The position numbers and the translations under genes are program-made. A stretch of DNA of 20,264 bases from a virus, in IMG/VR virus record IMGVR_UViG_3300011430_000166, positions 1 to 20,264 of that record. One strand, 5' to 3'. Below, piece by piece: positions 15,632-19,708 of this stretch (position 1 is its first letter; the number at the start of each line of letters is the position of its first letter). The notes under the pieces are model-generated. The model was not told where the DNA came from and searched no databases. It saw nothing but the letters and a program-made list of their open reading frames with translations.

Positions 15632-15779
15632 GATTACGCTTGAAGAACTTTACCAGATCGTGGGTGAGCTAGAAGTCGTTAGGAGAAAACAACTGCTTCA
15701 AATCAGTGAGATGGCTGCTGAGATAACTCGACTGAGAGAAGAAAATGGCCGACTGGAACAAGCCGACAATAACGAGTAA
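15618..15779 (+). CDS. Small coiled-coil protein (53 aa)
   Basis: A short frame starting at ATG 15618 and ending TAA 15777-15779, with GGGGAG at 15608-15613 as ribosome binding site. It overlaps the previous gene by 14 bases and the following fibre gene by 35. Nearly the whole product is a charged amphipathic helix (ITLEELYQIVGELEVVRRKQ, then EITRLREENGRLEQ) with Leu/Ile spaced as heptads, so a parallel dimeric or trimeric coiled coil is likely. Phage fibres often use coiled coils and small helper proteins for trimerisation, so a fibre-assembly role is a reasonable guess. That both neighbours overlap it in other frames, as in the rest of this operon, and that it has a ribosome binding site support it as real. 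Confidence 0.62.
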   Translation: MGQFEITLEELYQIVGELEVVRRKQLLQISEMAAEITRLREENGRLEQADNNE

Positions 15780-16377
15780 TTACGTTGCTTTCGTCGATGA
15801 GCTAAAATCTCGTGACGCTGATGCTATAGCTCTGAATACAACTGCCACCCTGGGACTTCCTTATCAAGCTGTTAAACTTATTCGCGCCCCTGTTAAGTTT
15901 CAAGAGTGGGTTGGTGACAGATTTAGTGATCTTACACTTTCTGTCGAGGGTGGAGGAACTGGTGCAGCTTCAGCAGGTACAGCACGTTCCAATCTTGGTC
16001 TAGGTTCGATGGCACTCCAGAATTCAAATGCGGTTGCTATCACAGGTGGAACTGCTGCGAATATAGGACTGTCTGGAAATTGCTCTTATAATGGTAATGA
16101 CTTCCATATGTATGGGACGAGTGGGACTACTCTTATAGTCCACGGTCGCCCAGGTCAATATGCAGAGCATGTGGCTGGTGAGGGTGCAACAAATGGATCG
16201 TCTGGCCTACTCATTACAGCTGGTTGGGCAGGAGGGTATGCTCTTACAGTTCACAGAGCAGACTTCGCTGATCTTGGTCTTGTAGTTTCTGTTCCACCAA
16301 ACAATGGTCCTATGGTGTGCAATGCCCCTAGTCGGCTAGTCATTCCGTTTGGCGCGGATAAGTGGGCAGCCACGTAA
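15745..16377 (+). CDS. Tail fibre-like protein (210 aa)
   Basis: The N-terminus (MADWNKPTITSNYVAFVDEL, then KSRDADAIAL) matches the opening of many phage tail-fibre proteins. The segment VEGGGTGAASAGTARSNLGL followed by GSMALQNSNAVAITGG is the widely shared fibre shaft motif. The C-terminal half is Gly/Asn-rich beta sequence with three Cys-containing strands (GNCSYNGNDFH, PMVCNAPSR) that would form the tip. No peptidase or chaperone domain is visible. The start ATG overlaps the small coiled-coil gene by 35 bases. The stop TAA touches the ATG of the His-x-Asp protein with no gap, so these two are almost certainly co-translated. Confidence 0.8.
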   Translation: MADWNKPTITSNYVAFVDELKSRDADAIALNTTATLGLPYQAVKLIRAPVKFQEWVGDRFSDLTLSVEGGGTGAASAGTARSNLGLGSMALQNSNAVAITGGTAANIGLSGNCSYNGNDFHMYGTSGTTLIVHGRPGQYAEHVAGEGATNGSSGLLITAGWAGGYALTVHRADFADLGLVVSVPPNNGPMVCNAPSRLVIPFGADKWAAT

Positions 16378-17211
16378 ATGGCTAAGTATCAAGGTTCCTT
16401 GTGGATAGAAGGGAACAATCTACATTGGGTTGATGAGGCTGGTGTAGAGTGGGCTTGGCAGGGAATCTTTGTCAAGAATCAAACAGCCTATCCTGGATCT
16501 CTGTGGATAGAGAGTTACTACGTTTACTATGTCAATCAAGCTGGAAATCAAATTTACAGGACTGAAGCAGTTTGGAATGGTGAGTATCATGGTGTGCCGG
16601 GGTCTATCTGGGTAGAGGGTTCTTTCCTTCGGTGGATAGGTGGTGCTGAAGCTGCGGAAATGCACGCGCATCAAGATGTAGCACACATTGACGGTGGTGG
16701 TGCAGCCGCGCATGTAGATCATACGGATCAAGTGGCTCATACAGATGTCCCTCCTGGAGGACACTCAGATGTGCCACATAACGATTGGCATCAGGACTGG
16801 GGTCATGGTGACTCTCATACAGATCAACATAGTGATACTCCTCATACCGATGCACATAACGATATGCACGGGGATAACCCTGGTACTCTGAACCATAGTG
16901 ACTGCACCATTTACCAAAACGGTGAGTTCTACGCACATGGCGACTTCTACGACAACGTCAGCGTTGGTCCTTATAACTGTATATGGCACGACGATTCACC
17001 ACATCAAGATGTAGCTCATAACGATTCACATGCAGACGTGCCACATCATGACGACCCAGGAGCTAACGATCATCAGGATGTTCCACATTCGGATGTTCCA
17101 TCTGGTACTCATAGCGATGTGCCGCACTCTGATACTCCACATGGAGATCATTCAGACGCAGTTCATAACGATGCACCACATGTCGATAACCCAATCAATC
17201 TAGGTCCATGA
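16378..17211 (+). CDS. His-x-Asp repeat protein, probable substrate of adjacent radical SAM enzyme
   Basis: Length is 277 residues. Residues about 6-88 hold three copies of a ~35-residue beta motif beginning GSLWIEG, GSLWIES and GSIWVEG (at 6, 40 and 75), probably a small folded anchor. From His98 to Asp270 the chain is almost wholly His-x-Asp units, about 29 by my count (HQD, HTD, HSD, HND, HGD and others), four to five residues apart. They form two blocks separated by a spacer that contains the only two Cys (176 and 201). There is no hydrophobic core there, so the region would be extended or metal-bound rather than globular. It abuts the tail-fibre gene and overlaps the radical SAM gene by four bases. 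It could be a precursor modified in the manner of RiPPs, or a metal-binding fibre like the HxH-iron needle of T4 gp37. Its function is inferred. Confidence 0.8.
   Translation: MAKYQGSLWIEGNNLHWVDEAGVEWAWQGIFVKNQTAYPGSLWIESYYVYYVNQAGNQIYRTEAVWNGEYHGVPGSIWVEGSFLRWIGGAEAAEMHAHQDVAHIDGGGAAAHVDHTDQVAHTDVPPGGHSDVPHNDWHQDWGHGDSHTDQHSDTPHTDAHNDMHGDNPGTLNHSDCTIYQNGEFYAHGDFYDNVSVGPYNCIWHDDSPHQDVAHNDSHADVPHHDDPGANDHQDVPHSDVPSGTHSDVPHSDTPHGDHSDAVHNDAPHVDNPINLGP
16393..16641 (+). repeat. Three tandem GS(L/I)W(I/V)E repeats
   Basis: Three ~35-codon units encode GSLWIEG, GSLWIES and GSIWVEG at their starts, each followed by aromatic/hydrophobic strands. They lie before the His-x-Asp region and are clear at protein level. 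Confidence 0.75.
16669..17187 (+). repeat. Degenerate His-x-Asp coding repeat
   Basis: About 29 His-x-Asp codon triplets lie in this stretch, with a less repetitive interval near 16903-16980. Codons for His and Asp vary (CAT/CAC, GAT/GAC), so protein-level selection, not recent DNA slippage alone, maintains the pattern. The spacing is irregular and coding, so it is not a CRISPR array. Confidence 0.85.
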
Positions 17212-18383
17212 GTATAGAGTATCTACCTGTCGGGATTGCCTGCAATATCTCCTGTGGCTATTGCTATCAAGACCCTATGCGTGAGGCAGGGAACATCAAT
17301 GTTCCAAGGGACTGGTCTAAGGTCAAGGCACAACTTGAAAGACTAGGTTCTGACTTCTCGGTCTTCGGCGGTGAGCCTTTGCTCGCGCCCGTCGAACACC
17401 TCGAAGAGGTCTGGGCTTATGGATTTGAGAAGTTTGGTCGTAATGGGATTCAAACAAACGGGTCGTTGATTACCGATAAGCACATAGAACTATTCTCTCG
17501 ATACGCAGTGCAAGTAGGTATCTCGATCGATGGTCCTGGCAAGATGAATCGAGTTCGCTGCACTGATGAACTGACAGAGAAAACTGAAGAGGCCATTTAC
17601 AAGCTATTCAAGCAAGGTATCAATACCTCTATCATTTGCACCATACATAGGGGGAACAATGATATTCCTGCTTTGTGTAACTGGTTCGATCATCTTAGTA
17701 GGGGTGGTATCAGGTATCTTAATCTACACGAGATGGAAATCGATTGTGGAAGACGTGATCTCGCCCTCTCCGAAGAAAGACAAATCGAAACCTTCCTAGA
17801 ACTCTATGAGTGGTCGAAGACAGCAAAGATACAAGTTGCGCCCTTCATTGACATCAAGAGACTTCTAACTGAAGAACAGCCTCAGGTATCGTGCGTGTGG
17901 AATAGTTGCGACCCAATTACAACCGCTGCGGTTCAAGGAGTTTCTCCAAATGGTGTTATGTCAAATTGTGGTAGAACTAACAAGGACGGAGTCAACTGGG
18001 TCAAAGCCGACCGACCAGGAAATGAGAGATATATTGGACTTTATTACACGCCTCAAGAGCATGGTGGTTGTAGAGATTGTAAATACTTCGCTTTCTGCAA
18101 GGGTCACTGTCCAGGCACATCAATTGACGGCGACTGGAGAAACCGCACAGTTAATTGCAGACTCTGGTACTCTCTCTTTGAGAAGATTGAATTAGATCTA
18201 CGTAGTGATAAAAGTGTAAGAATCCTCTGTTGTGATAAGAAGCAGAAGATTGTCGATAGGATACTAGCAGGTGTTCATCCGGTGAACAGCCACGGTGATA
18301 CTCCTCACGGGGATTCTCATGGGGATCATACAGATGGTATTAGAGCTACAATTCTAACGGAGAAACCAGAGTGGGCAAACTAG
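17208..18383 (+). CDS. Radical SAM/SPASM enzyme with C-terminal His-x-Asp tail
   Basis: A 391-residue SAM-dependent radical enzyme. The 4Fe-4S site is CNISCGYC at residues 12-19 (CxxxCxxC), followed by the SAM-contacting FGGEP at 53-57 and GISIDGP near 106. The C-terminal SPASM signature is C288-x2-C291-x5-C297-x3-C301, with further Cys at 229, 234, 254 and 317 that could complete two auxiliary iron-sulphur clusters. Enzymes of this type modify peptides or proteins. The ATGA overlap with the His-x-Asp gene makes that protein the obvious candidate substrate. An unusual feature is a short His-x-Asp tail at 362-376 (HGDTPHGDSHGDHTD), so the enzyme may modify itself, or the tail may be a recognition tag. 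The chemistry is not determined by the sequence. Confidence 0.9.
   Translation: MSIEYLPVGIACNISCGYCYQDPMREAGNINVPRDWSKVKAQLERLGSDFSVFGGEPLLAPVEHLEEVWAYGFEKFGRNGIQTNGSLITDKHIELFSRYAVQVGISIDGPGKMNRVRCTDELTEKTEEAIYKLFKQGINTSIICTIHRGNNDIPALCNWFDHLSRGGIRYLNLHEMEIDCGRRDLALSEERQIETFLELYEWSKTAKIQVAPFIDIKRLLTEEQPQVSCVWNSCDPITTAAVQGVSPNGVMSNCGRTNKDGVNWVKADRPGNERYIGLYYTPQEHGGCRDCKYFAFCKGHCPGTSIDGDWRNRTVNCRLWYSLFEKIELDLRSDKSVRILCCDKKQKIVDRILAGVHPVNSHGDTPHGDSHGDHTDGIRATILTEKPEWAN
18291..18335 (+). repeat. His-x-Asp repeat tail inside the radical SAM gene
   Basis: Four His-x-Asp units at residues 362, 367, 371 and 374 of the enzyme, coded like those of the upstream repeat protein: both contain GTGATACTCCTCA-type stretches. 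This suggests a shared origin or recombination between the two genes. Confidence 0.8.
18359..18362 (+). promoter_or_regulatory. Ribosome binding site for a GTG start
   Basis: GGAG ends eight bases before GTG at 18371 inside the radical SAM gene. It supports the GTG as the start of the methyltransferase fusion gene, as there is no near in-frame ATG. Confidence 0.7.
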
Positions 18384-19708
18384 AAAGATTAGACTTTACA
18401 ATTCCAGATTTCCTTCGGACTGTGTGGGTGTCGGAGCATGCAAGGGAATACTGGGAGCCTAAGATTAGAAGTATCTCTGCAAGTTGGCATGCTATCGAGC
18501 GCCTCACGCTATTGCAGGGTATGCGTCCCGGTGTGTTGCAGAGCGTCACACCTGAAGAGCTACCAGATGTACAGAACTGGGCGCTCGCCAAAAACATTCC
18601 GATGGCGATCGTTGGGTTGGACGGCGCGACAGAAAGCTACGGTAATGCGTCGATACCCTACGTAGCAGGAGAGAGATTTACCTACAGAGTGTATTTTGGT
18701 CTAGAACCTGAGAAGTTTATAGATGCTTGGAAAGCTCAGGCTGACCTTGCTATTGGTCATATGCTTGGTTTTCCAGATTGTTGTACTGCATCCTTTGTTA
18801 CGCATTGGAAGAAAGAAGGATGGCGAGACCTAACGATCCATTCGTATGGTCAGCCTCTTCAGAGAAACTTGATGTATAACAATGTTCTACTACGGCACAT
18901 TGGTATACGTGGAGTCTTTCATCTTCCTTGTAGTGTAAACTGTCAGGAGAGCGTGAAGATAGGTGCGAAGATCATTGGCGTCATGATGCATACAGAGGGT
19001 CTGATGATGCCTGCGGATTGGTTGCAGCAGCTACTCGTTATGCCTATGGAGTGGACTTCTCTCCATGGTGTAGCGATGGTAACTACTCCTATCCTCAAGA
19101 CCATCTACGCATCTGATCCCTTGCCTACCAAGGCTACGTTACGACTGGACAGTGAGCTATACCCTGCACATGGTGCGAGCGGGAATAAGTTTCCATTCCA
19201 GAACGTCGTGACATCTCGATTGTTTTTCAACGGCTTCAAATCCAAATCGGATATGAGCGCGGCGCACTCGTTCATCGTCTCGGTCCTATCAGATGCTAAG
19301 GTTCATGGCAAGGTTCTAGACCTAGGTTGTGGTAATGGCATACTCCTCAAGAGGATTCAGGCCGCGCATCCAAATACGAAATTGCTTGGTGTCGATTCAA
19401 ATACGGCAGTCATCGAGGACATAGTTCCGGGTGTCATTCCCTACTGTTCTGACATCTTTAGCTTCCGCGAGTGGGAGAAAGTAGATCTAGTTCTGCTCTC
19501 GTCCCAACGCCTATTCGAGGTTGATCCTTACAAGGGTACAGCCCTTATGGAGGTGATTTCACAGTACTCAAAACGACTACTTCTCTACAACTATGGTGAA
19601 TGGCGTGAGGGTCTAGAGTACTACACAGATCCATATTTCACTGTAGTGACAGCAGTCAAGAACGACAATTACAGAGCGTTACTATTGGAGAGCAAACATG
19701 CCATTTGA
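18371..19708 (+). CDS. DUF483-like domain fused to a class I methyltransferase
   Basis: The gene starts with GTG at 18371, 13 bases inside the radical SAM gene, and encodes 445 residues. The N-terminal ~260 residues contain GHMLGFPDCCTASF (Cys137-Cys138) and HLPCSVNC (Cys187, Cys191), the hallmarks of DUF483-like proteins of unknown function. The Cys residues could bind metal or be redox active. The C-terminal ~145 residues form a Rossmann methyltransferase: VLDLGCGNG at 315-323 is motif I, LGVDSN at 339-344 places the acidic ribose-binding residue, and later VDLVLL strands follow. A second SAM-dependent enzyme in the same overlapping operon as the radical SAM protein suggests joint modification of the His-x-Asp protein, but its target is unknown. 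Confidence 0.8.
   Translation: MGKLERLDFTIPDFLRTVWVSEHAREYWEPKIRSISASWHAIERLTLLQGMRPGVLQSVTPEELPDVQNWALAKNIPMAIVGLDGATESYGNASIPYVAGERFTYRVYFGLEPEKFIDAWKAQADLAIGHMLGFPDCCTASFVTHWKKEGWRDLTIHSYGQPLQRNLMYNNVLLRHIGIRGVFHLPCSVNCQESVKIGAKIIGVMMHTEGLMMPADWLQQLLVMPMEWTSLHGVAMVTTPILKTIYASDPLPTKATLRLDSELYPAHGASGNKFPFQNVVTSRLFFNGFKSKSDMSAAHSFIVSVLSDAKVHGKVLDLGCGNGILLKRIQAAHPNTKLLGVDSNTAVIEDIVPGVIPYCSDIFSFREWEKVDLVLLSSQRLFEVDPYKGTALMEVISQYSKRLLLYNYGEWREGLEYYTDPYFTVVTAVKNDNYRALLLESKHAI

Follow-up and report, generated by a model that had tools for sequence, protein, structure and literature searches.

Why would a viral tail-fiber locus encode a protein with a long array of His-x-Asp (HxD) motifs, and what would act on such an array? 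The array gene lies in a 20,264-nucleotide stretch of viral DNA (the window). The genes upstream of the array resemble tail and tail-fiber proteins (PHROG), and this gene order suggests that the array protein is located in the virion. The array gene and its upstream neighbor are laid out as follows.

15745–16377, + strand: tail-fiber-like protein directly upstream of the array gene (PHROG tail fiber matches, best 1.1e-4).
16378–17211, + strand: HxD-array protein of 277 aa, the proposed substrate, in a tail-fiber locus downstream of the tail-fiber-like gene (motif count; homologues aligned).
16378–16668, + strand: N-terminal domain with three GSxWIEGxxLxYxDxxG beta repeats, aa 1–97 (internal repeat test; AlphaFold).
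16669–16902, + strand: HxD block 1, 15 motifs, aa 98–175 (motif count).
16903–16986, + strand: spacer with C176 (16903–16905), C201 (16978–16980), HGD (16936–16944) and YQN, FYD and YDN; predicted beta-hairpin (motif count, model, alignment).
16987–17187, + strand: HxD block 2, 14 motifs, aa 204–270 (motif count).

The array begins at H98 (base 16669), ends at D270 (base 17187) and contains 30 HxD motifs, at exactly the coordinates given by the initial annotation. The mean count in 20,000 shuffles was 4.05 and the maximum was 12. Asp is found at +2 of 30 of the 31 array His residues (shuffle mean 5.6, maximum 14), and other H-to-D gaps are far rarer, barring those implied by the motif spacing. 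There are 25 distinct 9-mers among the 30 motif copies, and His and Asp are each encoded by both of their codons. These data point to selection on the protein rather than a young DNA repeat, and a recent repeat was ruled out as the origin of the array. The AlphaFold model has pLDDT values mostly of 84–98 in the N-terminal domain and mostly under 50 across the unmodified array, which has no confident fold. Pfam and PHROG assign the protein to no informative family, and no NCBIfam model, including the HxsA-type His-x-Ser model, matched it at E 0.1. A fold search with the model returned nothing significant in the PDB and one significant viral match, an unnamed 342-aa protein. The N-terminal domain also occurs in Thermus phages and on a haloarchaeal plasmid; among phage records it was found only in phiMa and Cumys.

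The array had been described as blocks of about 15 and 13 motifs around a spacer that holds the only two Cys residues of the protein, 176 and 201. The first count stands, and the second is 14, or 13 if the overlapping HHDD at residues 223–226 is scored once. The Cys assignment is also correct, but the spacer is not free of motifs. HGD at residue 187 is the one HxD motif outside both blocks, and HGD, YQN, FYD and YDN are consistent with the looser aromatic-x-Asp/Asn rule that relatives follow. The idea that the spacer is a fourth copy of the N-terminal repeat was unsupported (p 0.1–0.6). The Cys pair had been offered as a disulfide or a special modification site, with its conservation to be read from an alignment of homologues. 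Both Cys are present in 8 of 23 close homologues, 24–35 residues apart; 14 of the 23 have no array Cys, and the remaining homologue has just one, where the array begins. Across the wider set, 79 of 99 array regions contain no Cys. These counts rule out a conserved Cys site as a core feature. The pairing and the predicted hairpin are compatible with a local disulfide, and a disulfide specific to one subclade is the simplest reading.

The array gene is the first of three genes in an operon with the order array, radical SAM, DUF483.

17208–18383, + strand: radical SAM/SPASM peptide maturase of 391 aa, the proposed modifying enzyme, with an ATGA overlap with the array gene (Pfam, NCBIfam, Cys pattern, fold).
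18291–18335, + strand: array-like HGDTPHGDSHGDHTD tail of the maturase, aa 362–376 (conserved in alignment A1; disordered in the model).
18371–19708, + strand: third gene of the module, DUF483 (aa about 124–199) plus a class I methyltransferase (aa about 290–350) (domain search; co-occurrence).

The maturase matches Pfam Radical_SAM at 2.1e-15. It has CX3CX2C at residues 12–19 and the full SPASM Cys pattern at 234–317, and these are present in 140 and 142 of 144 homologues, respectively. The best NCBIfam matches are to AmcB, a cyclophane maturase (1.8e-23), to DynA, a dynobactin maturase (1.9e-21), and to the model for anaerobic sulfatase maturases (1.3e-19); each of them lies well below the curated cut-off. 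The bit scores against the cut-offs are 83 versus 425 for AmcB, 52 versus 445 for YhhB and 47 versus 310 for GrrM, and the cut-off for a named cyclophane-enzyme family is reached neither by the maturase nor by eight diverse homologues. The nearest folds to its AlphaFold model are ChlB and anSME (Z about 29). The maturase is about equally close to anaerobic sulfatase maturases and cyclophane enzymes, and for this reason sequence and fold do not by themselves fix the type of bond. A different modification of the array is one way to read these similarities: a dynobactin-like C-N bond from the His imidazole to the Asp C-beta, epimerization to D-Asp, or a lone C-beta oxidation, perhaps followed by methylation. 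DynA is the second-best model and dynobactin contains one C-N cross-link, the nearest folds are those of ChlB and anSME, and a methyltransferase is encoded by the next gene. The motif rules considered below bear on this reading.

The C-terminus of the maturase, HGDTPHGDSHGDHTDG, is itself a small array with four HxD motifs. This tail is present in most phage maturases, is missing from most chromosomal ones, and is modeled as disordered (pLDDT about 35). Its role may be docking or regulation, or it may itself be modified by the enzyme. In the DUF483 protein, C137, C138, C187 and C191 are near-invariant in a 60-row alignment, which suggests a metal or cluster site. No protease or exporter was recognized beside the array gene.

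Searches with the enzyme yielded 76 viral and 75 chromosomal loci. Besides Thermus phages, about 60 metagenomic viral loci carry the array-radical SAM-DUF483 module, as do many bacterial chromosomes and one haloarchaeal plasmid. In phages phiMa and Cumys the three genes follow tail genes and are ordered as in the window; the tail genes are annotated in Cumys as baseplate and collar fiber. The array, enzyme and DUF483 counterparts are Cumys_13/12/11 and phiMa_29/28/27; the phiMa proteins are 37% (array) and 45% (enzyme) identical to those of the window, and the DUF483 match has an E value of 3e-25. The phiLo stretch has genes for the enzyme and for a DUF483 protein, together with three whose products contain about 18, 72 and 101 HxD motifs. 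The genes for the 72- and 101-motif proteins (L012, 14807–16231 and 16253–18601) are on the strand opposite the maturase and about 4–8 kb away from it. Collagen-like tail fibers (L056) and proteins that match virion-protein families (L034, L078) occur among the other array proteins. The haloarchaeal plasmid (NZ_CP100467.1, Halomicrococcus; L288, 5338–5958) carries an array-radical SAM-DUF483-like module beside baseplate J, and in its array protein the N-terminal domain is retained (39% identity, E 1e-21), while YxD and FxD motifs are interspersed with HxD.

The association between array and enzyme falls off with distance. By a strict array definition, array genes account for 67 of 286 immediate neighbors of the enzyme, 27 of 527 genes two to three positions away, 6 of 650 four to six positions away, and 0 of 567 farther out. 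The same definition places an array within three genes of the enzyme in 59 of 74 viral loci and in 26 of 74 chromosomal ones, and with a looser test 42 of 75 chromosomal loci have an enriched ORF. The loci with no array gene within three genes (15 of 74 viral, 48 of 74 chromosomal) include some contig-end fragments, and the maturase relatives there may act on different substrates. Where HxD arrays are lacking, two pair scans for further enriched motifs revealed no substitute common to the loci. A reverse search with the HxD DNA pattern did not use the enzyme, and 80 listed stretches were analyzed. Of the 19 listed stretches with at least 20 motifs, 18 have the enzyme either in the stretch itself or elsewhere on the contig; some contigs are common to both searches, and the two are not fully independent. 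The sole exception among these 19 is a perfect HTDTA tandem repeat. Enzymatic crosslinking, which the initial annotation had set beside metal binding as an equal option, is strongly favored by the overlapping radical SAM/SPASM gene and by the co-occurrence of the two genes in viruses, bacteria and a haloarchaeal plasmid.

Two bacterial array proteins (L161, 2079–3542; L163, 12382–12864) begin with apparent Tat signal peptides, as if they were modified and folded before export. In Nannocystis (L118, 9001–11649; also L119 and L129) the maturase is part of one long ORF of about 880 aa with DUF483-like sequence, and the C-terminus of the L118 ORF is an aKG-HExxH peptide beta-hydroxylase domain (TIGR04267, 81.7 bits, cut-off 40). 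Maturase relatives in L140–L149, L156 and L157 (mostly Bradyrhizobium) and in L150–L155 mostly have a weak DUF483-like neighbor, and no HxD array was found within the stretches examined for L140–L157. A separate viral family (L184, L213, L235, L241) consists of 360–365-aa proteins with 13–14 C-terminal HxD motifs after a collagen-like stretch; of these four, the maturase was seen only in the L241 contig, far from the array. The pattern-scan matches L212, L215, L219 and L229 were rejected as simple repeats, and no enzyme was found there.

The function of the radical SAM-DUF483 module of Cumys and phiMa was reported as unknown with DNA modification suggested (PMC11437467, accessible part), the sole published remark on this locus that the literature search turned up. 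On this reading, the radical SAM and DUF483 genes would modify phage DNA and the array gene would be unrelated. Relatives of the genes do lie near deazapurine DNA-modification genes in cyanobacteria (same source), whose accessible part does not mention HxD arrays. The enzyme, however, groups with peptide maturases, bears an HxD tail of its own, is fused in Nannocystis to a peptide beta-hydroxylase domain, and adjoins HxD arrays in unrelated viruses and cells. We regard DNA modification as very improbable.

The rules governing the motif were derived from 102 non-redundant array proteins with 2,754 motifs and 2,844 array His residues. Asp or Asn occupies +2 of 2,754 of the 2,844 His (97%), with Asp 2561 times, Asn 193 times and Glu 3 times. 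Pro is the middle residue in 1 of the 2,754 motifs, compared with about 229 expected from background. Where Asp or Asn has no His at -2, Tyr, Phe or Trp is found there in 207 of 691 cases (30%) versus 8.3–9.1% at other tested offsets. The comparisons of -2 with the neighboring offsets give p values of 3e-21 and 3e-18, or 5e-15 without the three richest proteins, and these overstate the certainty because related proteins are not independent, but as many as 56 of the 102 proteins contribute. Of the 2,844 His residues in the family, 16 have another His at +2.

These substitutions discriminate between the metal and crosslinking options. His and Asp are classical metal ligands, and the array could be a scaffold for Fe, Zn, Ni or Ca ions like the HxH fiber tips, with the radical SAM neighbor having no direct role. 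A metal array is expected to take Glu more readily than Asn and to refuse Phe. The family has the reverse pattern: Asn stands in for Asp and Glu is nearly absent, Phe and Trp as well as Tyr appear in the His register, and Pro is excluded between the two positions. The initial annotation drew its metal proposal from T4 gp37, and a phage tail fiber with HxH sites is reported to have potential iron-binding domains (title of PMC11705849), but HxH is not the repeat here and the array is tightly linked to a peptide maturase gene. The substitution pattern rules out metal binding as the main reading, and a metal scaffold of any kind is improbable.

The same pattern fits a known chemistry. Characterized triceptide enzymes join the aromatic ring of residue i, which is Trp, Phe, Tyr or His, to the C-beta of residue i+2, which is Asn, Asp, Ser, Arg or Ala (PMC11002830). 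Examples are Trp-Asn/Asp, Phe-Asn, Tyr-Asp (YxdB), His-Ala (HaaB) and His-Arg (YhhB) (PMC11002830). Judged by its sequence, the array follows this aromatic-X-Asp/Asn (i,i+2) rule, with Asn and other aromatics tolerated, and three-residue cyclophanes along the array are proposed on this basis. The other modifications outlined above fit the motif less well. Neither epimerization nor a lone oxidation of Asp would require an aromatic partner at -2, but 97% of the array His are in that position and Tyr, Phe or Trp replace them, and a C-N or C-O bond is hard to reconcile with Phe, whose side chain has no nitrogen or oxygen. This alternative is possible but rather unlikely. That the array undergoes some radical SAM modification is very likely, and we consider it likely that the adjacent phage enzyme staples the tail-fiber array with dozens of three-residue cyclophanes.

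In the proposed stapling mechanism, the radical SAM/SPASM enzyme that the phage encodes next to the array would use the array as its substrate. It would generate a 5'-deoxyadenosyl radical that takes a hydrogen from the C-beta of Asp (or Asn), and this carbon would then bond to the aromatic ring two residues earlier, that of His or else of Tyr, Phe or Trp, to form the three-residue cyclophane. The reaction may be repeated at many of the about 30 sites, and a flexible low-complexity segment of the tail fiber would become a rigid stapled rod. The DUF483 protein is probably an electron-transfer or substrate-handling partner, and its fused methyltransferase probably carries out a tailoring step. 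A broader statement calls for a little more caution and on balance seems probable: tailed viruses of bacteria and archaea staple a virion fiber with their own radical SAM enzyme through tens of His/Tyr/Phe-to-Asp/Asn cyclophanes, and bacteria apply the same module to their own large, sometimes exported proteins.

If correct, stapling would be an apparently new way to build a virion part, with covalent stapling of a fiber at up to about 100 sites per chain by a phage-encoded radical enzyme. It would take the chemistry of three-residue cyclophanes beyond short peptides and into structural proteins, provide a single-enzyme system for stapling at many sites, give a function to DUF483-radical SAM modules in phages, bacteria and archaea, and correct the published suggestion of DNA modification. 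The cultured Thermus phages permit an immediate test. No report joining HxD arrays with radical SAM enzymes was found in the mainly open-access journal literature searched, and a His-Asp cyclophane was not found among the known triceptides in the literature examined. As far as could be checked, stapling of a fiber by a phage radical enzyme is a virion modification for which no report was found; the chemistry is of a known kind, and what is new is the class of substrate (virion proteins and other large ones), the scale, and the partner gene.

Several known systems resemble the module. T4 gp37-type fiber tips share His-rich motifs and a phage tail fiber with the window, but 30 of the 31 array His here are in HxD and not HxH, the substitutions are unsuited to metal, and a maturase gene is linked. 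The His-Xaa-Ser (HxsA/HxsB/HxsC) systems also place a repeated His-x-polar motif beside radical SAM enzymes; the polar residue is Ser there and Asp in the window, and HxsB and HxsC are absent from the 25 best models for the window enzyme. In the TvgA/TvgB poly-cyclopropylglycine system, one radical SAM enzyme likewise modifies a tandem-motif substrate repeatedly, but the repeat is TVGG, the bond forms within one Val side chain, and the product is a bacterial peptide. The Cumys and phiMa modules have homologous array, radical SAM and DUF483 genes in the order of the window, and the accessible part of their report mentions neither the array nor a link to peptide crosslinking. The triceptide enzymes (XncB, OscB, YxdB, HaaB, YhhB and AmcB) are SPASM radical SAM proteins encoded beside an aromatic-X-(Asp/Asn/other) i,i+2 substrate, with His and Tyr among the known aromatic partners and Asp and Asn among the known C-beta partners. 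They differ from the window enzyme, which is under all family cut-offs and has a DUF483 partner and the HxD tail of phage enzymes. Triceptide substrates are short precursors that carry a leader and are released as a peptide product, whereas the proposed substrates here, several of which are phage tail proteins, are long and contain from 8 to about 100 motifs, and that of the window is a 277-aa protein with a confidently modeled N-terminal domain.
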